Positions 38,164 through 50,559 of a stretch of 63,107 nt of DNA are shown here, piece after piece. Source of the DNA: [Mycobacterium] nativiensis (lineage in GTDB: Bacteria; Actinomycetota; Actinomycetes; Mycobacteriales; Mycobacteriaceae); the NCBI RefSeq assembly GCF_020172685.1, contig NZ_CP083986.1, forward strand, positions 3,380,693-3,443,799. Reading direction: 5' to 3'. The translations under genes and the position numbers were made by a program. The notes beneath the pieces were generated by a model. The model was not told where the DNA came from. It saw nothing but the letters and a program-made list of their open reading frames with translations, and made no database searches. Position 1 is the stretch's first letter. Every line of letters begins with the position of its first letter.

Positions 38164-39638
38164 CAACGCTGCCTTCCGGTTCCGACCGCGGTCGCCACCA
38201 CCTTGGTCTCCAGATATTCCTCGAATCCGGCCAGCCCCATCTCGCGGCCGATCCCGGACTGCTTGTAGCCGCCGAACGGCACATCGGCGGAGTACCACAT
38301 GCCGCCGTTGACGTTGATCGTCCCGGCCCGCAGCCGCGCGGCGACCCGGGTGGCGCGCTGCTCGTCGGCACCGAACACCGTGCCGGACAGGCCATACGGC
38401 GAATCGTTGGCGATCCGCACGGCATCAGAGTCGCCGTCGTGGGCCAGCACCACCAGCACCGGGCCGAAGATCTCTTCGCGAGCGGCCCGGGCGTCGTTGG
38501 TCAGTCCGGCGATCACGGTCGGCTCGATGTAGAAACCGCGGTCCGCCCAGCCCGGCCGACCGCCGCCGCAACCGAATGCGCCGCCTTCGGTGATCGCCAG
38601 GTCCAGGTAGTACTGCACCCGGTCGCGCTGCCGCGCCGAGATCAGCGGCCCGCACAGGGTTTTCGGGTCGCTGGGGTCCCCGAACGGAATCGCCGACATG
38701 GCGGCCACCACCGCATCGACAGCGTCGCCGTAGCGCTCGCGGGGCACCACCAGCCGGGTGGTCAGCGCACAGCCCTGCCCGGCATGCGTCGTCACGGTGC
38801 GGGCGGCCGCGGTGCACGCGGCCCCCAGGTCGGCGTCGTCGAGGACCACGAACGCCGACTTGCCGCCGAGCTCGAGGAAGACCTTCTTGATGGTCGCCGC
38901 GGCGGCGGTCATCACCGAGCGGCCGGTCGCGGTCGAACCGGTGAAGGAGACCGCGTCCACCCGGGCATCCTCGGCCAGGCGTGCGCCGATGCGGTGGTCG
39001 GCTGCGGTGACGATGTTGATCACGCCCGGCGGAAAGTCCGTCTTCTCGGCGATGATGCGGCCGACTTCGGCTGCACACCAAGGGGTGTCGGGCGCCGGTT
39101 TGAGTACCACGGTGTTGCCGGCCGCCAGAGCCGGCCCGATCTTGGCCAGGCTCACCTGATGCGGGAAGTTCCACGGTGTGATCGCCCCGACCACCCCGAA
39201 CGGTTCCCGCACGATGGTCCGCCGGGTGGTGATGCCCAGCGGGGCCGCCACACCCAGATCGACTGCCCACGAATAGCGCTCGGCGGTGTCGGCGGGGAAT
39301 GCCAAGTCGTCCACCGGCGTCTGCAACTGCCCGCCGTAAGTCAGCATCCGCGGCGCACCGGCCTCGGCGATGGTGATCTCGCGCAGTGCCTCGATCTCGT
39401 CGCCCAGGGCGTCGCGCAGTTGACGCAGGCAGTGCACTCGCAGTGCGGTGTCGCGGCACCAGTCCGTGGAGTCGAACGCGTTGCGGGCGGCGGCGACGGC
39501 CCGGTCGAGGTCGGCGCCGTCGGCGTCCGCGGCCTGTCCCAGGGTTTCCTCGGTGGCCGGGTTGACGGTCGCAAACGTCCCGCGCCCACCGGGTACCAGC
39601 GCGCCGTCGATCAGCAACTGGGTCGACGGGCCGGTCAC
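38163..39638 (-). CDS. Aldehyde dehydrogenase
   Basis: A 491-residue NAD(P)-dependent aldehyde dehydrogenase. The catalytic residues are Asn157 (ITPWNFPH), Glu256 (VFLELGGKSA) and Cys290 (HAGQGCALTT), with the cofactor Lys180 (VVLKPAPDTP) and FTGSTATGR. The C-terminal VPFGGYKQSGIGREMGLAGFEEYLETK is typical. Start GTG at 39638 (VTGPSTQLLIDG). It is first in a two-gene operon with the esterase and divergent from the LLM oxidoreductase, 92 bases apart. It may oxidise an aldehyde made from the alcohol product of ester hydrolysis. Confidence 0.93.
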   Translation of the reverse strand: MTGPSTQLLIDGALVPGGRGTFATVNPATEETLGQAADADGADLDRAVAAARNAFDSTDWCRDTALRVHCLRQLRDALGDEIEALREITIAEAGAPRMLTYGGQLQTPVDDLAFPADTAERYSWAVDLGVAAPLGITTRRTIVREPFGVVGAITPWNFPHQVSLAKIGPALAAGNTVVLKPAPDTPWCAAEVGRIIAEKTDFPPGVINIVTAADHRIGARLAEDARVDAVSFTGSTATGRSVMTAAAATIKKVFLELGGKSAFVVLDDADLGAACTAAARTVTTHAGQGCALTTRLVVPRERYGDAVDAVVAAMSAIPFGDPSDPKTLCGPLISARQRDRVQYYLDLAITEGGAFGCGGGRPGWADRGFYIEPTVIAGLTNDARAAREEIFGPVLVVLAHDGDSDAVRIANDSPYGLSGTVFGADEQRATRVAARLRAGTINVNGGMWYSADVPFGGYKQSGIGREMGLAGFEEYLETKVVATAVGTGRQR

Positions 39639-39670
39639 GGACCCCAGGCTAACGGCACGGCCCCGGCGTG

Positions 39671-39688
39671 ATCGATCGATTGATCGAT
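39671..39688. promoter_or_regulatory. ATCGAT-N6-ATCGAT repeat in the ALDH/LLM divergent promoter
   Basis: Two ATCGAT hexamers, 6 bases apart, within ATCGATCGATTGATCGAT, between the divergent start codons at 39638 and 39731. Because ATCGAT is itself palindromic, it reads as both direct and inverted repeat. It could be an operator; no adjacent regulator gene is assigned. Confidence 0.35.
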
Positions 39689-39730
39689 TCGTGCGCTACG
39701 GTGACGCCCAGGAGGTGACCGGCCGATCTC

Positions 39731-40717
39731 ATGCCACTACTGAGCGCCCTGCGCCTGAACATGACAGGAGTCCCCGGCGCCACCGCCGGCAGTGCCGAGC
39801 GGTACCGGGCGGCGCTGGAGATGGCGTCCTACGCCGACGCGCACGGAATCACCGCAATCGGTTGCGAGGAGCATCATCTCGCCGCCACCGGCTGGCTGCC
39901 CGCCCCGTTGTTGATGGCGGCGGCCGTCGCGGGCGCCACCCAGAACATCCGCATCAGTATCAATGCGCTGCTGGTGCCGCTCTACGACCCGGTGCGCCTC
40001 GCCGAGGACATCGCCGTCCTGGATCAGCTCTCGGCCGGGCGGGTCAGCTTCGTCGCCGGGATCGGCTACCGCCCGCAGGAATACCACGCTGCCGGCAAGG
40101 ATTTCCGGCGGCGGGGCAGGCTGATGGACGAATCGCTGACCGTGTTGCTGAAGGCCTGGGGCGACGAGCCGTTCGAGTACCACGGCCGGCGTATCGATGT
40201 GACGCCCAAACCACACACCAAGCCGCATCCGGTGTTCTTCATCGGCGGCATGAGCGCCGCGGCGGCCCGCCGTGCGGCCCGATTCGGGCTGCCGTTCTCC
40301 CCGCCGATGCCGATGCCCGAGATCGAGGCGGTGTATCGGGCCGAACTGGACCGGCACGGCAAGCAGGGTCTCGTGTTCTGCCCCGAAAACGGCAACACCG
40401 TCACCCATCTGACCACCGACCCGGAGGCGGCCTGGTCCCGGTGCGGCCAATACTTTCTCAACGAGGCGGCCGAATACAGCGCGTGGGCGGTGCCGGATGT
40501 GCCTCGTCCCAACGAAAGTCCGGTCGACACCGTCGCGGAGCTGCGCCGCACCGACAAGGTGGAGGTGCTCACTCCCGACGAGCTGATCGCGCAGTGCCGG
40601 GCGGGGCGGACCGGGGTGACCGTTCATCCGTTGATGGGCGGTCTGCCGCTCGACGCGGGCTGGGAAAGCCTGCGGCTGCTGGGCGAAAAGGTGCTGCCCG
40701 CGCTGCAGCGGCCCTAG
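39731..40717 (+). CDS. LLM class flavin-dependent oxidoreductase
   Basis: A 328-residue luciferase-like monooxygenase-fold protein (FMN or F420 dependent). RYRAALEMASYADAHGITAIGCEEHHLAATGWLPAPLLMAAAVAGAT shows the EEHH/Gly pattern at residues ~24-70, with IRISINALLVPLYDPVRLAEDIAVLDQLSAGR and GIGYRPQEYHAAGKDF behind. Substrate is unknown. Its place next to a BVMO, esterases and ALDH suggests another oxidative step. It begins at ATG 39731, with AGGAGGTG about 14 bases upstream. Its 3' end overlaps the convergent acyltransferase gene by 4 bases. Confidence 0.92.
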   Translation: MPLLSALRLNMTGVPGATAGSAERYRAALEMASYADAHGITAIGCEEHHLAATGWLPAPLLMAAAVAGATQNIRISINALLVPLYDPVRLAEDIAVLDQLSAGRVSFVAGIGYRPQEYHAAGKDFRRRGRLMDESLTVLLKAWGDEPFEYHGRRIDVTPKPHTKPHPVFFIGGMSAAAARRAARFGLPFSPPMPMPEIEAVYRAELDRHGKQGLVFCPENGNTVTHLTTDPEAAWSRCGQYFLNEAAEYSAWAVPDVPRPNESPVDTVAELRRTDKVEVLTPDELIAQCRAGRTGVTVHPLMGGLPLDAGWESLRLLGEKVLPALQRP

Positions 40718-41454
40718 TTCTGCGAGGCCTTCTTGCGTTCGATGTCGGCGAGGGCGGCGGCCAACTCGGCGCGCTCGGCCGCCGTGGTCTCCCAGGCCAG
40801 CTTGCGGTTCTTGACCACCTTGGCTGGTGCTCCCACCGCGATCGAGTAGTCCGGGATGACGCCCTTGACCACCGCGTGGGCGCCCAGCACACAGCCGCGG
40901 CCGACGCTGGTGTCACGCAGGATGGTGACCTTCGCCGCGATCCAGGTGTCCGGCCCGATCCGCACCGGGCTCTTGATGATGCCCTGGTCCTTGATCGGCA
41001 TGTCGATGTTGTCCATCTTGTGGTCGAAGTCGCAGACGTAGCACCAGTCGGCCATCAGCACCGAATCCCCCAGCTCGATGTCGAGGTAGGTGTTGATGAC
41101 GTTGTCGCGGCCCAGCACCACTTTGTCGCCGAAGCGCAGCGATCCCTCATGCGCCCGGATGGTGTTTTTGTCGCCGATGTGCACCCAGCGGCCGATCTCC
41201 ATCTGGGACAGCTCCGGGGTGGCCTGGATCTCCACCCCTTTGCCCAGAAAGACCATGCCGCGGGTGATGATGTGCGGGTTGGCCAGCTTGAACTTCAGCA
41301 GCCGCCAGTACCGCACCAGGTACCACGGGGTGTAGGCCCGATTTGCCAGCACCCAGCGCAGCGACGCCACCGTGAGGAACTTGGCCTGGCGCGGATCCCG
41401 CAGCCGCGAACCCCGCCAGCGTTTGTGGATCGGCGCACCCCACATGGTCGTCAT
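40714..41454 (-). CDS. Left-handed beta-helix acyltransferase (Rv3034c-like, MGLP cluster)
   Basis: A 246-residue hexapeptide-repeat acyltransferase. A helical N-terminus (residues 1-65) is followed by LbH coils (GKGVEIQATPELSQMEIGRWVHIGDKNTIRAHEGSLRFGDKVVLGRDNVIN and later VRIGPDTWIAAKVTILRDTSVGRGCVLGAHAVV) with the catalytic His in FDHKMDN or GAHAVV. It resembles Rv3034c, proposed as acetyl- or acyltransferase for methylglucose lipopolysaccharide. It is divergent from the Rv3035-like gene (90 bases). Confidence 0.9.
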   Translation of the reverse strand: MTTMWGAPIHKRWRGSRLRDPRQAKFLTVASLRWVLANRAYTPWYLVRYWRLLKFKLANPHIITRGMVFLGKGVEIQATPELSQMEIGRWVHIGDKNTIRAHEGSLRFGDKVVLGRDNVINTYLDIELGDSVLMADWCYVCDFDHKMDNIDMPIKDQGIIKSPVRIGPDTWIAAKVTILRDTSVGRGCVLGAHAVVKGVIPDYSIAVGAPAKVVKNRKLAWETTAAERAELAAALADIERKKASQN

Positions 41455-41544
41455 GGCCGGAAAGCCTACGCGAGCGGCTTCGAGCCACGCGCTACCCTCA
41501 CCTGGACTCGTTCACTGCCCGGCGAAGGATTGGGGATTGCCACT

Positions 41545-42843
41545 GTGTTGCGGCGACGTGGTGTCCTGGCCGGAATCGCCGTGGCGGCGGTGGCAGGACT
41601 GCTGGGTGGCTGTTCCAACACCGATTCGTGGGTGGATGCCGCCCCCGCACCGGGCTGGCCCGCCCAGTACGCCGACGCCGCCAACAGCAGCCACACCGAC
41701 ACCGCCGGGGCCTCCGACCTGCAACTGGACTGGACCCGTTCGGTCAAGGGCGAGCTGGGCGCCGGCCCCGCCCTGGGCATTCACGGCTGGATGATGCTCA
41801 ACGCCCAGACCGAGACCGGCTGCTCGCTGATGCAGTGGGAGAACGCCGACCGCGGCCGCCAGCGCTGGTGCACCCGGCTGCATCAGGGCGGTGGGTTCTT
41901 CGGCGCGCTGATCGACGGCTTCGACAATGTCTACGTCGGCCAGCCCGGCGCCATGCTGTCGTTTCCGCCCACCCAGTGGATTCGCTGGCGCGCTCCGGTG
42001 ATCGGCATGCCCTCGACACCGCGGATCCTTGGCGACGGCCTGCTGCTGGTGGTGACGCACCTGGGTCAGGTGCTGGTGTTCGACACCCACCAGGGCACCG
42101 TGGCGGGCACCCCGCTGGATCTGGTGGACGGCGTCGACCCGACCGACTTCCGGCGGGGATTGGCCGACTGCGCCGGCGCCCACTCGGACTGTCCGGTCGC
42201 CGCCGCGCCCGCCTTCTCACCGGCGAGCAACACCGTGGTGGTCAGCCTGTGGCAGCCGGGCGCCAAGGAACCCGGACTGGTCGGACTCAAGTACCACCCG
42301 GGCGGTACCCCGCTGCTGAGCCAGGAATGGACCAGCGACGCCGTCGACGCCGGGGTGCTGGCCAGCCCGGTGCTGTCCGCCGACGGCTCCACCGTCTACG
42401 TCAACGGGCGCGACCAGCGGTTGTGGGCGATCAACGCCGCCGACGGCAAGGCGAAATGGTCGGTGCCGCTGAAGTTCCTGGCGCAGACGCCGCCGGCGGT
42501 GACACCGGACGGGCTGATCGTCTCCGGCGGCGGCCCGGACACCGACCTGGTCGCCTTCGCCGACCGCGGTGAGCACGCCGAGCAGGTGTGGCGCCGTGAT
42601 GACGTCGCTCCGCTGTCCTCATCAAGCCTGGCCGGAAAGGTCGGCTACACCGTTGTCGCCGGCACCAGTCTCGGGCCGGCCGGCTTGTCGCTGTTGGTGT
42701 TCGACCCGGCCGACGGGCACACCGTCAACAGCTATCCGCTGCCCGAAGCGCGCGGTTTCCCGCTCGGGGTGGCGGTCGGCCACGACCAGCGGGTGGTGGC
42801 CACCACCAGCGCCGGCCAGGTCTTCAGCTTCGCCCCCGCCTAG
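41545..42843 (+). CDS. PQQ-like beta-propeller lipoprotein (Rv3035-like)
   Basis: A 432-residue exported lipoprotein. VLRRRGVLAGIAVAAVAGLLGGC is a signal with a lipobox (LLGGC, Cys23), preceded by a twin-arginine-like RRR. The mature part contains beta-propeller blades with alternating WxxxxxG repeats, e.g. LVFDTHQGTVAG, VYVNGRDQRLWAINAADGKAKWSVPL and QVFSFAPA at the end, as in PQQ-type/BamB-like proteins. Start GTG at 41545 is the first in-frame start before the signal. It lies in the MGLP neighbourhood, but its role there is not known. It is convergent with the TB22.2-like gene (5-base gap). Confidence 0.88.
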   Translation: MLRRRGVLAGIAVAAVAGLLGGCSNTDSWVDAAPAPGWPAQYADAANSSHTDTAGASDLQLDWTRSVKGELGAGPALGIHGWMMLNAQTETGCSLMQWENADRGRQRWCTRLHQGGGFFGALIDGFDNVYVGQPGAMLSFPPTQWIRWRAPVIGMPSTPRILGDGLLLVVTHLGQVLVFDTHQGTVAGTPLDLVDGVDPTDFRRGLADCAGAHSDCPVAAAPAFSPASNTVVVSLWQPGAKEPGLVGLKYHPGGTPLLSQEWTSDAVDAGVLASPVLSADGSTVYVNGRDQRLWAINAADGKAKWSVPLKFLAQTPPAVTPDGLIVSGGGPDTDLVAFADRGEHAEQVWRRDDVAPLSSSSLAGKVGYTVVAGTSLGPAGLSLLVFDPADGHTVNSYPLPEARGFPLGVAVGHDQRVVATTSAGQVFSFAPA

Positions 42844-42848
42844 CGGGC

Positions 42849-43547
42849 TTAAACGGCCAACGGCGGCATCGCCGTGCGCGGCACCTTCACCGTGGTGGGA
42901 CCGGAGCTCAACGGCAGCAGCTCACCGGGCGCGAAGTAGAAGATCACTTCCTCGTTGGTGATGGCGAAATTCTGGTAGTGCGACGAGTCCATCCCCGAAC
43001 CCGACGAAATCAGGATCGCCGGCACGCCGGTCTGGCGCTCGAGGTCGCGCTGCACGACCGGGAAGATCGCCTCCAGCGGCTTGCTGCCCTGCGCGAACAG
43101 CGTCTCGAACGTGATCGGCTTGCGGTTCGCCAGGTCGTAGTTGAAAGCCTGGAACCAGGTGGACGGCTGCGGGCCGCCGAGGTCCTGGAAGATCTTGAGC
43201 ACGACGCTCTGGGTGCCCTTGGGCGCCTGACCGGAACGGTGCTGCTCGGAGGTCGCGTCCATCTCGTAGGGCATGTCACGCGAGCCGGGCGACTTGGCCA
43301 CGGTCAGGAACCCGTCGCGGTTCTGAACCAGGTAGTCGGTGAGCGTCTGCTGGTCGGGGTAGTCGACCGGGAACTTCATGTCCAGGGTGTAGCTGGCCGT
43401 CGAGGAGTGCACGTGGCACAGCCCGGACTCCAGCGACCCGCCCAGTTCTGCGCAGGGCGAGGCCGCCTGCGCCGTGGGAAGGCCCGCCATGCCCAGCCAG
43501 CCGCCCACTGCCCCGCCCGCCATCAGGGCGGCCACCAGAATGCGCAT
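42849..43547 (-). CDS. Secreted esterase-like protein TB22.2 homologue (RsiV/DUF3298-type)
   Basis: A 232-residue exported protein. It has a signal peptide (MRILVAALMAGGAVGGWLGMAGLPTAQA) and a mature domain with two N-terminal cysteines (ASPCAELGGSLESGLC) and a DUF3298/RsiV-like fold (TWFQAFNYDLANRKPITFETLFAQGSKPLEAIFPVV, EEVIFYFAPGELLPLSSG). It resembles Rv3036c (TB22.2), a secreted esterase antigen. The ATG at 43547 is chosen at the signal peptide; the frame upstream to 43586 is unrelated. Confidence 0.88.
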   Translation of the reverse strand: MRILVAALMAGGAVGGWLGMAGLPTAQAASPCAELGGSLESGLCHVHSSTASYTLDMKFPVDYPDQQTLTDYLVQNRDGFLTVAKSPGSRDMPYEMDATSEQHRSGQAPKGTQSVVLKIFQDLGGPQPSTWFQAFNYDLANRKPITFETLFAQGSKPLEAIFPVVQRDLERQTGVPAILISSGSGMDSSHYQNFAITNEEVIFYFAPGELLPLSSGPTTVKVPRTAMPPLAV

Positions 43548-43694
43548 CGTCGGTTTGTCTCGCTTTGTCTCACCCTGCCCCAGCAAGCAGGAAATGGCCC
43601 GAAGCCGCCAGCCTACCGGGCCGCTCAGCGTGATGGACCGCAGACGAAAGCAAAGGGCCGATGACGACGGACGTCGGTGTCCGGGCGGGTCCAG

Positions 43695-44588
43695 CTACGA
43701 ACTGAGCTGCGCTGCCGTCGCTCGGATCTCCCGGATATAGCGGTCACGCTCCGGTGCGCTCACCTGATTTTGCAGCGGCCCCAACTGCAGCTCGTAAACC
43801 GCTTCGCCCTTGTCCAACACCGGCGCGGCCAGGTAACTCACCGACAAGGGGTCCGAAGTGCCGAGTTCTTCTGCGGTATAAGGGTTTCCGCCCACCCCAG
43901 TCAACATCTGTAAGACCCGCTGCCGAAGCGCGGCCCGCCGGGGGTGTTCGGCGAGCATCCCGGCAACCTCGGCCAGTACATCAAGTGCCGCCGGGTCGGC
44001 CTGCCCCATGCCGAATACCACGACGCCACCGTTCTTCGCCTGGTCGAGCAGCTCACCCAAGAACTGCCGCTCGGGTACTGGCGCGGTGCCCAACCACCTC
44101 CGCCGGGCATGCGCATCGCGGTGCGCGATCACGGCGGCGCCGGCGGGTGCGACAAGCGGCAGGCGGACCCCGACGCCGACAGCGGCCGGTATCTGGCCCT
44201 GCCCTCCGACCACGGTCAAAAAACTTATCTCGGTGGCGCCCACGAGGGCGAGAGCCACTCCACAATCCACCCGCTCCGACAGCTGTTCAATGAGGTGGGT
44301 GCGCTCCGGGGACACCGGCCACAGTGCGCGAACCGCGTGTGCGACGCCCATCAGCCCTGGCCCCAGCAGGTACCGCCGATCGGGCTGACGAACAACCCAT
44401 CCCGCCCGCTCCAGGGTCAGCAGGATCGACGTCACCGTCGCACGGTTTAGTTCCAACCGCGACGCGATCGATGCGACCGAACTCGGTTGCTGCTGGTCGG
44501 CAAGCAATCCCACGATGGCGACGACTCGATCGGTCGGTGGCGAACTCACTCGCTCGACGTCGTCGGGCCCCTCATCGGGCTGGGTCAT
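43695..44588 (-). CDS. IclR family transcriptional regulator
   Basis: A 297-residue IclR protein. The N-terminal HTH is RVVAIVGLLADQQQPSSVASIASRLELNRATVTSILLTLERAGWVVRQPDRRYLLGPGL (residues ~21-80), and the C-terminal effector domain includes VALALVGATEISFLTVVG and VRLPLVAPAGAAVIAH. Effectors of IclR proteins are usually small organic acids or aromatics. The ATG at 44588 has AAGGAG upstream. It is divergent from the secreted-protein/P450/ferredoxin genes, with a perfect dyad at 44756-44773, the likely operator. The unit is absent from the corresponding M. tuberculosis region. Confidence 0.92.
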   Translation of the reverse strand: MTQPDEGPDDVERVSSPPTDRVVAIVGLLADQQQPSSVASIASRLELNRATVTSILLTLERAGWVVRQPDRRYLLGPGLMGVAHAVRALWPVSPERTHLIEQLSERVDCGVALALVGATEISFLTVVGGQGQIPAAVGVGVRLPLVAPAGAAVIAHRDAHARRRWLGTAPVPERQFLGELLDQAKNGGVVVFGMGQADPAALDVLAEVAGMLAEHPRRAALRQRVLQMLTGVGGNPYTAEELGTSDPLSVSYLAAPVLDKGEAVYELQLGPLQNQVSAPERDRYIREIRATAAQLSS

Positions 44589-44701
44589 CGCACTCCTTAT
44601 GCCGAGAACACCGGACCGAATCCTACGAGGCCAGGCCGCCCGACGTGACCGGCACACGGCGAACCGCAGCTCCGTTTCTGAGATTCAGCCCAACCAAATG
44701 C

Positions 44702-44730
44702 TTGCCTGGGCGATCACTCCAGCGTACAGT
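44702..44730 (+). promoter_or_regulatory. Candidate sigma-70-type promoter of the secreted protein-P450-ferredoxin operon
   Basis: TTGCCT (44702-44707) and TACAGT (44725-44730) are separated by exactly 17 bases, close to the mycobacterial SigA pattern, placing the transcription start near 44737. The IclR-type dyad lies just downstream. Confidence 0.45.
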
Positions 44731-44755
44731 CCCGAATCAATTATTCATCATCTGT

Positions 44756-44773
44756 ATGACAAATAGTTGTCAT
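44756..44773. promoter_or_regulatory. ATGACAA-N4-TTGTCAT operator
   Basis: Perfect 7-bp inverted repeat with spacer ATAG, in the intergenic region next to the IclR gene and 22 bases before the start of the large secreted protein. The length and symmetry fit an IclR dimer site. If the promoter at 44702-44730 is correct, binding here would block transcript elongation. Confidence 0.65.
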
Positions 44774-44795
44774 TATGGTTCGGGAGAGGAGCCCC

Positions 44796-46904
44796 ATGAG
44801 CACGACGATGAGCGCTGATCAGCCGATTGGATCCGCGGGCCCAAGCAGGAAGCCGCTGTCCCCCACGGCGCTGAACCCGGGCACCAGGCGGATAGCGTCG
44901 GACCGCGTCATCCGAGCGGCTCAGCTGGCGACGATGGCGTTGACTGGGGCTTTGGTACTGGGGGTCACCGCGCAGCCGGCCACCCCGACGGCCACGCTGC
45001 CGGTGTCGTTGACTTCGGCGGACAGTTCGCTGCAGCCGGTGATCGATCAGATCCTGGCGAGCATGCAGCACGCGCAGCAGGGGTTCGAAGCCCTGCCGTT
45101 CGCCACTGCGGACAGCAACGCCATGCTGCTGGCGAGCCTGCAGGCCACGAACTACGAACTGCTCATGTCGTCCGGCTTCTCACAGGTCACCCACGGCCAG
45201 GTCTTCTTCCAAGTGCCCGAGGTGACTGCAGGCAACGCATCCGACTATCGCCCCTACTTCCAGTTCTTCACCCCCGACATCTACTACCGGACGGCCCAGG
45301 GCTTCGATCCGTCGGCGACCTATGAACTCACCGGCAAGGTCGGCGACGGCACCGGCGGCATCGCCCTGATGCCGATCAATGTCGGGGGATCGTCCGCCGA
45401 AGGCGGCGGTGCACTGGAACTCGACAGCAATCTGCACGTCAACCCCGATGGCACGTTCACGGTCTACATCGGTCCCGAGGCGCCCCCCGGAGCCGTCAAC
45501 TTCATCGACAGCAGCCAGATCAACGCAGTGCTGATCCGGGACATGCTGAACTCTTGGGCATTGGGCGGCAGCAACTTCCACATCACGTGCACGGCCGACT
45601 GCGCGCCGATCGATCCAGGTATCACCGCCACCGGCCTGTCCGATGCCATGGTCAGCCGGCTGCTGCACTCGATCGCTCCGGCAGTGGGCCCGTTCAACCA
45701 ATTGAACATGCAGCTCGCCGGTGCTGCCGGCATACTGCAGCCGCCCAACACCATGAGCGACCTGGCCTCGCAAGGTGGTTACGGGGTGGCTTTGCCCAGC
45801 GCCGCCGCCGCGTCGGGTCATTTCGACCTGCAGCCCGGCGAAGCCCTGATCGTCAAAGTGCCCCAGATCGAATCCGCCGGAATGAACGGGATCGAGCTGA
45901 TGAACGTCTTCGGCACGAACCTGCCCGCCACCTTGGCGCAGACCAGCCTCAACGGCAGCCAGTCGTTCCTTTCCAACGACGGGTACACCTACTACGTGGT
46001 CAGCGCCACGAACCCGGGGGTCGCCAACTGGCTGGACAGCGGCGCAGTCACCAGCGGCGAGATCTACATGCGCTACCAGAACATTCCGGAGGCAGACCGG
46101 CCGACGACGCCGCTGCCGGTGGAGACCCAGGTAGTGCAGGTGGCCGACGTAGCCAAGTACCTGCCGACCGACACGCCCACCGTGAGCGCCGCGCAATACG
46201 CCGCCGACATGAATGAGCGAGTGCTGTCCTACGGCTATGCGTTGGACACGGCCCGCGTGGCGGGGCAACCCGGCTGGGTCACCCAGCAGTTGTGGCTGCA
46301 CGACCTCGAGAAGACCATGGGCACCGACAACTACACTGCGGTGTTCGGTCAGCAGCCCGAGACGCCGATGTGGCTGCGGTTCACTCCGGCGCTCAGCCCC
46401 GACATGCTCGCGCTGGCCAAGGCCTTCCTGACCGATCCTTCCGCCGGCATGACCGCGATCCAGGACAACTGGGATCTGGCGATGAAGGATGTGGCACTGC
46501 CGATCCAGCTGGCGCAGGCCTTGCTGGAGAAGAACTTCAGCCAAACGGCCGACGCCGTTCAGAGCGCGCTCTCGTCGGGCGACATGGGCCAGGCGGTGAC
46601 GGCGCTGTTCGCCGGCGGCCAGCAGTTCGGCACGATCCTCAGCGACTCGCTGTTCGACCCGAACACCAGCATCATCTCGGGCATCCTCAACGCCCGCGAC
46701 GACCTGGCCACCTCGGTCTTCACCGCGACCGGCGGCATGCCCGACGTGGCAAATCCGCTGGCGGCACTGGAATGGGAGTTCCTGCCGGCGCTGGCCGGTT
46801 CGGGCTGGGACTTCAGCTCACTGCTGGATCCGTCCGGCTGGGCAGACCTGGACCTGGGCGCCGTGCTGGATCCCAGCGCCTATCTGGCAATGCTGTTCAG
46901 CTGA
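44796..46904 (+). CDS. Large secreted protein of unknown function (beta-rich DUF1214-like region)
   Basis: A 702-residue exported protein not assigned to a known enzyme. After a ~50-residue polar, basic N-terminus there is one hydrophobic segment (AAQLATMALTGALVLGVTAQPA). Residues ~130-270 look beta-rich (YFQFFTPDIYYRTAQGFDP, LHVNPDGTFTVYIGPEAPPG, VLIRDMLNSWAL), resembling DUF1214-type domains. A second beta region has YTYYVVSATNPGVANWLDSG, and the C-terminal ~170 residues are helical, Ala/Leu-rich, ending LDPSAYLAMLFS. Two cysteines (ITCTADCAP) may pair. The ATG at 44796 follows GAGAGGAG. It is the first gene of an operon with the P450 (40-base gap). Perhaps a cell-surface carrier for the P450 substrate. 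Confidence 0.8.
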   Translation: MSTTMSADQPIGSAGPSRKPLSPTALNPGTRRIASDRVIRAAQLATMALTGALVLGVTAQPATPTATLPVSLTSADSSLQPVIDQILASMQHAQQGFEALPFATADSNAMLLASLQATNYELLMSSGFSQVTHGQVFFQVPEVTAGNASDYRPYFQFFTPDIYYRTAQGFDPSATYELTGKVGDGTGGIALMPINVGGSSAEGGGALELDSNLHVNPDGTFTVYIGPEAPPGAVNFIDSSQINAVLIRDMLNSWALGGSNFHITCTADCAPIDPGITATGLSDAMVSRLLHSIAPAVGPFNQLNMQLAGAAGILQPPNTMSDLASQGGYGVALPSAAAASGHFDLQPGEALIVKVPQIESAGMNGIELMNVFGTNLPATLAQTSLNGSQSFLSNDGYTYYVVSATNPGVANWLDSGAVTSGEIYMRYQNIPEADRPTTPLPVETQVVQVADVAKYLPTDTPTVSAAQYAADMNERVLSYGYALDTARVAGQPGWVTQQLWLHDLEKTMGTDNYTAVFGQQPETPMWLRFTPALSPDMLALAKAFLTDPSAGMTAIQDNWDLAMKDVALPIQLAQALLEKNFSQTADAVQSALSSGDMGQAVTALFAGGQQFGTILSDSLFDPNTSIISGILNARDDLATSVFTATGGMPDVANPLAALEWEFLPALAGSGWDFSSLLDPSGWADLDLGAVLDPSAYLAMLFS

Positions 46905-46944
46905 CCGCGGTCGGCACCGATGAGTATTTCAAGACAGGAGTGCA

Positions 46945-48162
46945 ATGACCACGACAACGCCTGACCAGGCGACCTTCACACCACGCGGCGGCCAGTCCTG
47001 GCGCGACCCCTGGCCGATGTACGCGGCGCTGCGCGAATATGACCCGGTCCACCGAGTGGTACCCGACCATGCGCCCCACAACGATTACTGGGTGTTGTCA
47101 CGGTATGCCGACATCAGCGAGGCCGCCCGGGACTGGGAGACCTTCTCGTCTGCGCAGGGCTTGACCATCGATTACGGAGAGATGGAGCGCTTGGGTCTTG
47201 CCGAGGAGAACGCTCCGCTGGTGATGCTCGATCCCCCGGCGCACAGCGAGTTCCGCCGGGTGGTCCACAAGGGCTTCACCCCGAAGCAGATCGTGACGAT
47301 CGAGCCGGCAGTGCGCGAATTCGCGGTGGAGCGCATCGAGCGGTTACGCGCACAAGGCGGCGGTGACATCGTTGCCGAGCTCTTCAAGCCGCTGGCCAAC
47401 ATGGTCGTCGCTCACTATCTGGGGGTGCCAGACGCCGACCGATTCCGGTTCAACGACTGGGCCGACAACATCGTCGAGGCCAACGCCACCGGGACCCAGG
47501 CGGGCGCCGTTGATGCGATCGTCGAACTCTTCGGCTACTTCACCGAACTGGTCGAACGGCGCAAGCGGGATCCGGGCGATGACACCGTCTCGCACCTGAT
47601 CGCCCGCGGATTCGGCAGCGACGCCGACAGCCTCGGGAGGGTCTTGGGATGGGCCTTCACCATGATCGCCGGCGGCAACGACACGATTATCGGAATGCTC
47701 GGCGGCAGCGCCCAGCTGCTCACCCAAGACCGCGATCAGCGGTCACTGTTGATCGAGGACCCGGGCGGCATCACCGCAGCCGTCGAGGAGTTCCTGCGCC
47801 TGACCTCGCCGGTGCAGGGGCTGGCCCGCCTGACGACTCGCGACGTAGAGATCGACGGTGTGACCATCCCGGCCGGGCGTAAGACATTGCTGTTGTACGC
47901 ATCGGGGAACCGGGACCCGCGTCAGTACGGACCGGACGCCGAACAGCTGGATGTGCGACGCAAGCCGCCGGCCATCCTGGCCTTCAGCCAGGGTGCCCAT
48001 CACTGCATCGGCAACACTGCGGCGCGGATGCAGTCGCGGGTGGTCCTGGAGGAGTTACTGGCCCGCTGCCCGAACTTCCATGTCGATTGCGATGCCGTCG
48101 AATACGCCGAGGGCATGTACGTTCGGCGACCCGACACCCTGATATTCGCTCCGGAAGCCTGA
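46945..48162 (+). CDS. Cytochrome P450
   Basis: A 405-residue bacterial class I P450. The I-helix oxygen-binding motif is AGGNDT (242-247), the ExxR pair is Glu282-Arg285 (EEFLR), and the heme loop is FSQGAHHCIG with the ligand Cys354. The N-terminus is soluble, without membrane anchor. MLDPPAHSEFRRVV is the conserved C-helix motif. It receives electrons from a ferredoxin, almost certainly the one encoded 15 bases downstream. The start ATG at 46945 has ACAGGAG upstream. The AGGNDT Asn replaces the more common Glu before Asp-Thr (AGxET/DT), seen in some terpene- or acid-hydroxylating P450s. Substrate unknown. Confidence 0.95.
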   Translation: MTTTTPDQATFTPRGGQSWRDPWPMYAALREYDPVHRVVPDHAPHNDYWVLSRYADISEAARDWETFSSAQGLTIDYGEMERLGLAEENAPLVMLDPPAHSEFRRVVHKGFTPKQIVTIEPAVREFAVERIERLRAQGGGDIVAELFKPLANMVVAHYLGVPDADRFRFNDWADNIVEANATGTQAGAVDAIVELFGYFTELVERRKRDPGDDTVSHLIARGFGSDADSLGRVLGWAFTMIAGGNDTIIGMLGGSAQLLTQDRDQRSLLIEDPGGITAAVEEFLRLTSPVQGLARLTTRDVEIDGVTIPAGRKTLLLYASGNRDPRQYGPDAEQLDVRRKPPAILAFSQGAHHCIGNTAARMQSRVVLEELLARCPNFHVDCDAVEYAEGMYVRRPDTLIFAPEA

Positions 48163-48177
48163 ACAGAGGAAGACACG

Positions 48178-48375
48178 ATGAGGGTCGTCGCCGACCGGGA
48201 CAAGTGCATGGGAAACGGACTTTGCGAGGCGGTCCATCCGGCCGTCTTCGCCGTCGGAGATGACGGTGTCGTCATCGTCCATGATGAGAACGTTCGCGCC
48301 GAGGACCGCAGGTTGCTGGAACAGGCGGTTGCGGCCTGCCCCGCTTTCGCATTGCGGCTCGTCGACGACGACTGA
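48178..48375 (+). CDS. [3Fe-4S]-type ferredoxin, P450 redox partner
   Basis: A 65-residue actinobacterial single-cluster ferredoxin. It has Cys10-M-G-N-G-L-Cys16 (pattern CxxXxxC, with Asn at the variable fourth position) and a distant CPA (Cys54), which is the ligand set of the mycobacterial P450-associated [3Fe-4S] ferredoxins. The Asn there is less common than His or Tyr and may tune the cluster potential (family knowledge; effect inferred). The gene follows the P450 by 15 bases with AGAGGAAG as ribosome binding site. No ferredoxin reductase is encoded nearby. Confidence 0.92.
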   Translation: MRVVADRDKCMGNGLCEAVHPAVFAVGDDGVVIVHDENVRAEDRRLLEQAVAACPAFALRLVDDD

Positions 48376-48382
48376 GGCGCCA

Positions 48383-49588
48383 TCACCGAGACGGACGGCA
48401 AATGTAGGCCACGGCACGTCCCGCTGACCCCGATCCGATTCGGGTGATCACGACCGACAACGCCGCCCGCCCGCGCAGCCGCAGCCGGCGTCGCAGTGCA
48501 TCGGGGTCGGCCTGCACATCACGCACGCCGCGGACCAGGATTTCCAGCGTGCCGCAGTCCAGGGCGGCCAGGGCCTGCCGCAGCCGTTTCTCGCTGTAGG
48601 CCAGAGTCTCGAGGACCTCGAATCCGCGAACCCCGTCGGGCAGCGAGTCCCCGGACAGGTAGGCGATCTCGGGATCGAGCTGCCAGAGCCCGTGCCGGGC
48701 GCCGTAGTGGCGGACCAGGCCGGCCCGGACCACCGCACCGTCCGGGTCGATGAGCCAGCGCCCCGCCGGACGCACGTCGCAGTCGTGGGGGTCGGCGTCG
48801 GTGACCTGCTCGCCGCGGTCAAGGATCACCGCGCGGCGGCGCACTCCCGACTCCGCCAGGCCGGGCGACCACAGGCAGGCTTCCCGCACCGAGGCGCGCC
48901 ACGAGGTGACTTCGATCTCGCCCTGAAAACCGAGCAGCCCAACCTTCTCGAAATCGATTCCAGGAGCGACTTTTACGGCGAGGTCGCGTCCCGCGTAGAC
49001 CTCCAACAGCCGGTCCAGGGCGGGCTGGTAGTCGGCCGGATCGAAGCGCCGCCGCCCACTGCCGCGCCGGCCCGGGTCGGCCAACACCACGGTGTCGCGG
49101 CTGACCGGGGCCAACGCGTCGGCCCGCACCACGGCAACCCCACCCACGTTGTGGCGCGCCATCGCCAGCCGCACCGGGTCCAGGTCGCTGCCCAGCACCC
49201 GGTCGGTGAACTCCGACAGGGCCGCCAACTCGGTGCCCACCGAACAGGTCACGTCATGCACAACGGCACCCGGTGCGGCGGCATTGATCCGGCGTGCCCG
49301 GTGCCGCGCCACCGGTGCGGCGCTGGCCTGCTGCAGCGCCTCGTCGGTGAACAGCCACTGCGACGCCGCCGGCAGGTCGGCCAGTTTCGCCGCCGCCCGC
49401 CGGCGCAACAGTACGGTCTCCACCAACGCGGGCGTCCGATCGCCGAAGCGCCCCCGCAGCGCGGCGATGTCGGCGACCCGGGTGGCATCGGTGAGCGCGA
49501 AGCCGGCTACCTCCGCCAGGGCGGCGACACCGACCGGCGAGCTCAGATAGCCGACACCGTCGACTTCAAATCTGAAGCCGGCATTCAG
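48383..49588 (-). CDS. SAM-dependent methyltransferase (Rv3037c-like, THUMP-like domain)
   Basis: A ~401-residue methyltransferase resembling Rv3037c of the MGLP region: an N-terminal ~140 residues (GVGYLSSPVGVAALAEVAGF...), a class I SAM domain with VVHDVTCSVGTELAALSEF and VLGSDLDPVRLAMARHNVG, VVLADPGRRGSGRRRFDPADY, and a C-terminal THUMP-like part (EILVRGVRDVQADPDALRRRL). No ATG, GTG or TTG is in frame at the beginning. The CTG at 49588 overlaps the stop codon of the preceding methyltransferase (CTGA). An ATG at 49584 is one base out of frame, so a frameshift or a real CTG start must be resolved. Confidence 0.82.
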   Translation of the reverse strand: MNAGFRFEVDGVGYLSSPVGVAALAEVAGFALTDATRVADIAALRGRFGDRTPALVETVLLRRRAAAKLADLPAASQWLFTDEALQQASAAPVARHRARRINAAAPGAVVHDVTCSVGTELAALSEFTDRVLGSDLDPVRLAMARHNVGGVAVVRADALAPVSRDTVVLADPGRRGSGRRRFDPADYQPALDRLLEVYAGRDLAVKVAPGIDFEKVGLLGFQGEIEVTSWRASVREACLWSPGLAESGVRRRAVILDRGEQVTDADPHDCDVRPAGRWLIDPDGAVVRAGLVRHYGARHGLWQLDPEIAYLSGDSLPDGVRGFEVLETLAYSEKRLRQALAALDCGTLEILVRGVRDVQADPDALRRRLRLRGRAALSVVITRIGSGSAGRAVAYICRPSR

Positions 49589-50559
49589 GACGGTTTGACC
49601 CCGGTGACCATCAGGTTGTAGAACCAGCCCTTCGGGACCACGCGACGCCACACGTTGGCGTCCACCCAGCTCAGGGCCGTCCAGCTGCCGAAGGCGAACC
49701 GCGCCCAGCCCCAGCCGAGTTTGCCCGGCGGCACCGTCGACTCGAAGGTCCGGACCGGCCAGCCCAGCATGGCGGCGGTGAACTCTTCGCTGGCGGTGTG
49801 CACGTCGACCGCGCCGGCGTTGGCCGCCATCCGCTCCAGATCGGCGGGCTCGAAGGTGTGCAGGTCCACGATCCACTCGAGCGCGGCGGCGCGGGAGTTC
49901 TCGTCGAGCTCCTCCTGCGGCCGGCGCCAGGAGCCCATGCCGGGCAGCTTCATCGCGGCGACCGTGGTCTTCCAGGTCAGGTCTGCCAGCCGGCGGGCGT
50001 AGAAGTTGCCGACGGTGGTGGGCTCACCGGCGAAGATGAAACGGCCGCCGGGCTTGAGCACCCGGACCACCTCACGCAGCGACAGCTCGACGTCGGGTAT
50101 GTGGTGCAGCACCGCGTGGCCGACCACCAGGTCGAAGGTGTTGTCCTCGTACGGGATGCCCTCGGCGTCGGCGACCCGACCGTCGACGTCCAGGCCGAGG
50201 GCCTGACCGTTGCGAGTGGCGACCTTGACCATGCCCGGCGACAGGTCGGTGACCGAGCCGCGCCGTGCCACGCCGGACTGCATCAGGTTGAGCAGGAAGA
50301 ACCCGGTGCCGCAGCCCAACTCCAGCGCCCGGTCATAAAGCGGCGCTTCCCCAGCCCGTTCCGAGGCCGGCACGATCGCATCGAAGCGGCCCCGGGCGTA
50401 GTCGATACAGCGCTCGTCGTAGGAGATCGACCACTTCTCGTCGTACTGCTCGGCCTCCCAGTCGTGGTAGAGCACCTGAGCGAGCTTGCTGTCGTGCCGG
50501 GCGGCTTCCACCTGCTCGGCGGTGGCGTGCGGGTTCGGCGTCGGGTCCGTGCTCGTCAT
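49585..50559 (-). CDS. Class I SAM-dependent methyltransferase (Rv3038c-like)
   Basis: A 324-residue methyltransferase. The N-terminus has QVLYHDWEAEQYDEKWSISYDERCIDYARGRF, SAM motif I is ALELGCGTGFFLLNLMQSG, the following acidic site is SVTDLSPGMV, and the catalytic-side region is VVGHAVLHHIPDVELSLREVVRVLKPGGRFIFAGEP. The C-terminal ~100 residues are specific to the Rv3038c group. Its acceptor is unknown; a lipid or polysaccharide of the neighbouring MGLP pathway is conceivable. It is upstream of and coupled to the Rv3037c-like gene. Start ATG at 50559. Confidence 0.9.
   Translation of the reverse strand: MTSTDPTPNPHATAEQVEAARHDSKLAQVLYHDWEAEQYDEKWSISYDERCIDYARGRFDAIVPASERAGEAPLYDRALELGCGTGFFLLNLMQSGVARRGSVTDLSPGMVKVATRNGQALGLDVDGRVADAEGIPYEDNTFDLVVGHAVLHHIPDVELSLREVVRVLKPGGRFIFAGEPTTVGNFYARRLADLTWKTTVAAMKLPGMGSWRRPQEELDENSRAAALEWIVDLHTFEPADLERMAANAGAVDVHTASEEFTAAMLGWPVRTFESTVPPGKLGWGWARFAFGSWTALSWVDANVWRRVVPKGWFYNLMVTGVKPS

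Follow-up and report, generated by a model that had tools for sequence, protein, structure and literature searches.

Organization of the locus

The stretch of [Mycobacterium] nativiensis DNA analysed here, hereafter the window, is 63,107 nucleotides long and belongs to a genome assembled as a single contig of 5.28 Mb, the closest named relatives of which are Mycolicibacter. On re-reading the window, all four genes of the unit described below were found as open frames at the coordinates and in the arrangement given by the initial annotation, and the HTH_IclR, p450 and Fer4_13 domains scored above their Pfam cut-offs. The features are:

43695..44588, minus strand: IclR-type regulator, 297 aa (HTH_IclR); alternative upstream GTG start at 44657
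44702..44730, plus strand: probable promoter of the operon, TTGCCT-17-TACAGT, identified by eye
44756..44773, no strand assigned: predicted operator, perfect inverted repeat ATGACAA-ATAG-TTGTCAT, conserved in relatives
44796..46904, plus strand: exported-looking protein, 702 codons from ATG, with a signal-like start and a DUF1254/DUF1214-fold core
46945..48162, plus strand: CYP130-like cytochrome P450, 405 aa (Pfam p450, motifs, tree clade)
48178..48375, plus strand: single-cluster ferredoxin, 65 aa, CXXNXXC...CP (Pfam Fer4_13, motif)

The exported-protein and P450 genes are separated by 40 nt and the P450 and ferredoxin genes by 15 nt, a spacing that makes a single operon, divergent from the IclR gene as initially proposed, likely for the last three genes. 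Both flanking genes were recovered in nine of the ten genomes searched, always 43-117 bp apart (9/9) vs 4,796 bp in the window. By this comparison the four-gene unit is an insertion of about 4.8 kb, as had been claimed. Its GC content is 65.3%, vs 68.7% for the window. No repeat of at least nine bases common to the compared end stretches of the insertion was found, nor any tRNA gene in the window or Rfam match at 42500-49900, and the exported protein had no match among plasmids at E<=1e-40. The left neighbour (42849-43586) passes the NCBIfam EstaseRv3036c model (346 bits, cut-off 200) and the right neighbour (48383-49876) carries a THUMP-like domain. Going by the Rv3036c-like neighbour, the surrounding region is presumably the one labelled MGLP, and the names Rv1255c, Rv1257c, tap and Rv3037c presumably apply to neighbouring genes. 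Further left, the window holds a 1131-aa open reading frame (39448-42843) with a C-terminal PQQ_2 match, the two halves of which match separately in L009.

The P450 and its ferredoxin

The window P450 matches Pfam p450 with 73 bits (cut-off 22.8) and carries the motifs of the family: GGNDT in the I-helix, ExxR as EFLR and the heme motif FSQGAHHCIG. Its nearest solved relative in the PDB is CYP130 (2uuq, 525 bits vs 204 for the next family). CYP130A1 (Rv1256c) of Mycobacterium tuberculosis is an orphan enzyme that N-demethylates dextromethorphan (PMC6469627). A CYP130-like gene was found at E<=1e-110 in 57 of 60 genus genomes including the source, which also holds a canonical CYP130 copy, 60% identical to the window P450. 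The P450 tree has 32 rows, L011 and L012 having been left out because they duplicate L070 and L071. In it, L067, L068 and L105 join the window P450 first, followed by L075 and L078-L080 (the second clade below), to make a clade of eight rows (support 94/89). Canonical CYP130 forms a separate clade of 13 rows (94/97). The window P450 was rejected as an orthologue of canonical CYP130 (Rv1256c) because of this separate clade and its different genomic place.

A ferredoxin gene adjoins the P450 gene in all eight members of the module clade. None was detected alongside L106, the next row out, from another genus, nor beside the 13 canonical P450 genes (tblastn for six, blastp of called genes for the rest); in L110, which belongs to another genus and is not part of the canonical clade, a ferredoxin lies 2.2 kb from the P450. 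The canonical CYP130 locus has instead a TetR-type gene and a FAD oxidase and, in L030, L031, L013 and L015, an MMPL-type gene pair lies between FAD oxidase and P450. The window ferredoxin (Fer4_13, 43.5 bits, cut-off 24.5) has three cysteines arranged as CMGNGLC...CP, following the pattern CXX?XXC(X)nCP. The variable position is N in the window clade and L105 (CXXNXXC) but M in the second clade (CXXMXXC). Ferredoxins with N there have been described in M. marinum, whose examined proteins contained [3Fe-4S]; M was not found among the residues listed for that species (PMC6237146). Among solved structures, the window ferredoxin is closest to the FdxE-CYP143 fusion 8amq and the ferredoxin 8amp, and FdxE binds CYP143 with high affinity (PMC9868604). 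The window pair resembles these systems, in which a P450 gene adjoins the gene of a small single-cluster ferredoxin, and differs from them in that the partner is a CYP130-like P450.

The exported-looking protein

The most hydrophobic segment of the 702-aa protein, found by hydropathy and inspection, spans residues 41-59; it follows RR31-32 and precedes VTA-Q. Residues 1-70 have low confidence in the structure model. From this signal-like start, export to the cell envelope is likely. The core, about 75-452, shows the DUF1254/DUF1214 fold and is followed by a C-terminal helical extension, although Pfam DUF1214 (PF06742) scores 18.3 bits, under the gathering cut-off of 25; a precomputed DUF1214 domain is carried by three listed relatives (P0075, P0103, P0106). 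The initial annotation of a protein of unknown family thus holds for function and fails for family. No Pfam PPE or PE domain was matched. The protein differs from the DUF1254/DUF1214 proteins 6ans, VPA0106 and VPA0735 by its signal-like start and helical extension, and searches of the open literature turned up no function for these three.

The family occupies eight loci in the source genome, and a P450 similar to that of the window is nearby at only two, the window locus and that of paralogue L035 (about 1.1 kb away). Paralogues of the exported protein at L033, L034, L036 and L018 are divergent from a gene with DUF1254 and DUF1214 domains. Two short DUF1214-type proteins of the source genome (L040 and L041, 375 and 354 aa) adjoin sulfotransferase genes.

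The IclR regulator and gene order around its relatives

The regulator has an IclR helix-turn-helix (HTH_IclR, 40.1 bits, cut-off 22), while the effector-domain model IclR_C scores 15.8 bits, below its cut-off of 24; a distant relative, L082, reaches 40.4 bits with IclR_C. At E<=1e-60, relatives were found at 21 places in 19 of 396 genus genomes, and the surroundings of all 21 were inspected. A search of the order at E<=1e-55 matched ten places in 9 of 397 genomes, five of them new, three of which have a divergent P450 adjoining the IclR gene. Taken together, a P450 lies less than 3 kb from the IclR gene at 15 of 26 places, 4.8-8.4 kb away at five and nowhere in the stretch examined at six, counts that cover P450s found by similarity to the window P450 and may miss distant ones. 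Genes in relatives were called with our own codon-usage script, which missed PPE genes.

The window type of unit occurs in three of 396 genus genomes: G000, G347 (L067) and G069 (L068), the last with the exported-protein frame broken after residue 121. In a second clade of four genomes (G203, L075; G205, L078; G222, L080; G380, L079), the order is IclR, Ig-DUF1214 protein, P450, ferredoxin and acyl-CoA ligase; the members of a group are closely related genomes, which means that such counts are not independent. The Ig-type protein begins with a signal-like segment, carries Ig-like domains and ends in a DUF1214 region. P450 and ferredoxin of this clade are 65-67% and 44-48% identical to those of the window, and its IclR gene is co-directional with the unit whereas that of the window is divergent. 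The downstream acyl-CoA ligase is confined to these four Ig-type relatives; NCBIfam pointed to no substrate for it, none of the 25 models listed reaching its cut-off. In a third group (G022, L031; G101, L071; G308, L069; G320, L070), the IclR gene is divergent from a DUF1214-type protein (48-51%), upstream of a FAD oxidase and the canonical P450; this P450 lies 4.8-8.4 kb away from the IclR gene and may be under other control. An open reading frame of 529 aa in L011 and L069 matched nothing in Pfam and is possibly not a real gene.

The prediction that the exported protein and P450 co-occur was borne out across species, where a DUF1214-type exported protein recurs with P450 and ferredoxin, and it fared poorly in the source genome itself; the opposite outcome, homologues never near P450 genes, did not appear.

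Several relatives are incomplete. In G117 (L072), IclR gene and operator are followed by a P450 that matches only to residue 138 and then by a phage integrase gene, and L077 retains the exported protein as fragments. In G331, exported-protein fragments lie near the IclR gene and a P450-ferredoxin pair about 20 kb away. Such decay (the truncated P450 beside the integrase gene in L072, the fragments of L077, the broken frame of L068), together with the unit being an insertion, is what would be expected if unrelated genes had been joined by chance and were now being lost. The recurrence of the gene order in a second clade that is only distantly related, the conserved operator and the repeated recruitment of a DUF1214-type partner (see below) make a chance neighbourhood very improbable.

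Other relatives lead to different genes. In G007, G023, G064 and G271, the IclR gene is accompanied by operator-type sites ahead of PE or PPE genes, and in G007 a 28% P450 match lies 4.9 kb away. The IclR relatives at L073, L074, L076 and L081, 56-58% identical to the window IclR, have operator-type sites before genes whose PPE/PE identity was borne out by Pfam, and it is possible that they regulate mycobacterial surface proteins. Four more distant IclRs (L082-L085) adjoin another P450. At L127:7415-9889, an IclR relative (41%) stands ahead of a protein that matches the PQQ_2 beta-propeller weakly.

These neighbours bear on a reading in which nothing is taken up: the P450 would oxidize a lipid or polyketide made by the cell itself, the product of which would be bound or acted on in the envelope by the exported DUF1214 protein. 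Consistent with such envelope remodelling, several lineages have a surface or envelope protein as partner (bearing Ig-like domains in L075 and L078-L080), PE and PPE genes stand under related IclRs, and the unit is devoid of a transporter. The unit is, however, equally devoid of a lipid-synthesis gene, and catabolism accounts for the acyl-CoA ligase of the second clade as well or better, so that we regard remodelling as rather unlikely.

Promoter and predicted operator

The probable promoter TTGCCT-17-TACAGT is conserved in seven aligned intergenic regions; it falls below the threshold of the promoter scan, which returned nothing. The 16-bp operator core TGACAAATAGTTGTCA (44757-44772) ends 23 nt before the start codon of the exported protein. 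It is the only site in the source genome at up to two mismatches (control 0), and shuffles of the window gave the operator motif 0.05 times on average.

Of the 19 genomes that hold IclR relatives, 16 contain the exact motif GACRAATANTTGTC, at 22 distinct places in all; 19 of these sites, spread over 14 of the 16 genomes, are less than 5 kb from an IclR relative, a count that is partly circular as 10 of the 19 lie in regions where the motif was read. Outside the motif-defining regions, 9 of 12 exact sites are near an IclR gene, and these nine represent about three independent lineages owing to close kinship within groups. Exact sites stand 16-19 nt ahead of the Ig-DUF1214 gene start in four genomes, 9 nt ahead of the P450 in G117 and before PE or PPE genes at four sites in three genomes. 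Three exact sites away from IclR genes (two in G023, one in G064) have no convincing target, and no operator site was found near the IclR gene of G331. One mismatch to the motif is not diagnostic, because 42 of 50 such sites are away from IclR genes.

All seven regions (7/7) upstream of more distantly related IclRs contain the half-site, as ACRAATA or TATTYGT, at least once, vs a background of 0.15 per kb taken from the same loci, four of the seven having already been inspected when the half-site was chosen. In the three newly examined regions, two of them near-identical, GCACGAATAGTCGTGC or GACACGAATATTCGTGTC lies just before the P450 start. An operator-related palindrome precedes P450 genes in two other genera: at L124, L125 and L126, an IclR gene and a P450 gene are divergently oriented, and a palindrome built like the operator lies immediately 5' of the P450 start. 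By sequence comparison, related IclRs share an operator type placed before DUF1214-type, P450, PPE or PE genes. Effector-responsive control, as initially proposed for the unit, fits an operator that is both conserved and single.

Replacement of the exported partner

The IclR tree joins the window clade and the clade found at the canonical P450 locus as sisters (99/98). The exported proteins do not follow, as the canonical-locus ones fall within a set of DUF1214-type proteins lacking a neighbouring IclR gene. For the IclR-linked exported proteins of the two closest types, a single origin was rejected: forcing them together costs 147 log-likelihood units (AU p 3e-37); the first exported-protein tree had been flagged for long branches, the AU test used a smaller set of 21 rows, and the group tested was named after the first tree had been inspected. 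Tree rows from tblastn comprise the best piece only, with stops written as X (residues 122-702 for L068). The Ig-type partner represents a third DUF1214 lineage. Sister IclR clades, exported proteins that are not sisters and this third lineage indicate that the DUF1214-type partner under related IclRs has changed at least twice. Across these changes, the nearby P450 is of the module or the canonical type. Since the same kind of protein was repeatedly recruited to the same regulated position, this provides the strongest evidence that exported protein and P450 serve one function, and their coupling is well supported.

Possible functions of the unit

The best explanation, to which we assign a probability of about 45%, is an acquired, IclR-controlled uptake-and-oxidation unit, with uptake followed by hydroxylation as the likeliest mechanism. 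As comparison suggests, IclR would act through the single palindromic operator, which follows the probable promoter and precedes the first gene, repressing the operon until an effector, probably the substrate or product, releases it. The 702-aa DUF1214-fold protein, likely exported to the envelope, would there bind a hydrophobic compound or help it enter. The cytosolic P450, fed by the neighbouring ferredoxin, would be expected from its family to oxygenate a substrate, which would be the same compound, and the product would pass to catabolism.

This explanation is favoured because the operator occurs only once in the genome and is retained at related loci, because the order IclR, DUF1214-type protein, P450 and ferredoxin recurs in a second clade with an acyl-CoA ligase, and because the P450-ferredoxin pair was kept in 8/8 cases and the DUF1214-type partner changed at least twice. 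PPE51 is needed for trehalose uptake across the mycomembrane (PMC8826857) and, by analogy, the PE/PPE genes under related IclRs hint at an uptake role. PPE51-type PE/PPE uptake proteins are exported surface proteins, and PE/PPE genes stand behind the same operator type; the window DUF1214 protein differs in lacking a PPE/PE match, and uptake by it is putative. The uptake-and-hydroxylation system of the initial annotation is favoured by the co-occurrence of exported protein and P450 and weakened by the composition of the unit, in which neither an inner-membrane transporter nor a further catabolic enzyme was found, the window copy having no acyl-CoA ligase. Also counting against uptake and oxidation are the lack of a known activity for the DUF1214 fold and of a ligand, the 6/26 IclR places with no P450, the DUF1214-type paralogues mostly with no P450 nearby, the distance of the P450 in the third group (L031, L069-L071) and an export signal recognized by inspection.

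The unit could instead be protective, with IclR sensing a toxic hydrophobic compound that the exported protein excludes or binds and the P450 inactivates. An acquired and patchy distribution would suit such a role, and in M. tuberculosis cyp130 adjoins the efflux gene Rv1258c (PMC6469627). That review nevertheless reports no functional link between the two genes (PMC6469627), the module P450 lies outside the canonical CYP130 lineage, and the second-clade ligase suggests that the product is used. Protection is accordingly considered unlikely.

No description of an IclR-P450-DUF1214 unit was found among the titles listed by searches of the open literature. Judged from such titles, the components are of known kinds, and what is new is their regulated combination and repeated assembly: the operator, a separate CYP130-like lineage with its own ferredoxin, and partner change under related IclRs. 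A broader proposal, tentative and on balance doubtful, is that a Mycobacteriales IclR family with the conserved operator core ACRAATANTYGT constitutes a plug-in P450 control device, which in mycobacteria would have repeatedly joined a P450 to interchangeable surface proteins (several DUF1214 lineages and Ig-DUF1214) and, elsewhere, to PPE or PE genes, so that mycomembrane passage and oxidation would be switched on together.

The passage of hydrophobic compounds across the mycomembrane is largely an open question and CYP130-type enzymes are orphans. With a single-operator repressor whose effector may be the substrate or product of the P450, the compound that releases it would name a candidate substrate. 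The IclR operator would also make the role of DUF1214, a domain of unknown function, testable.
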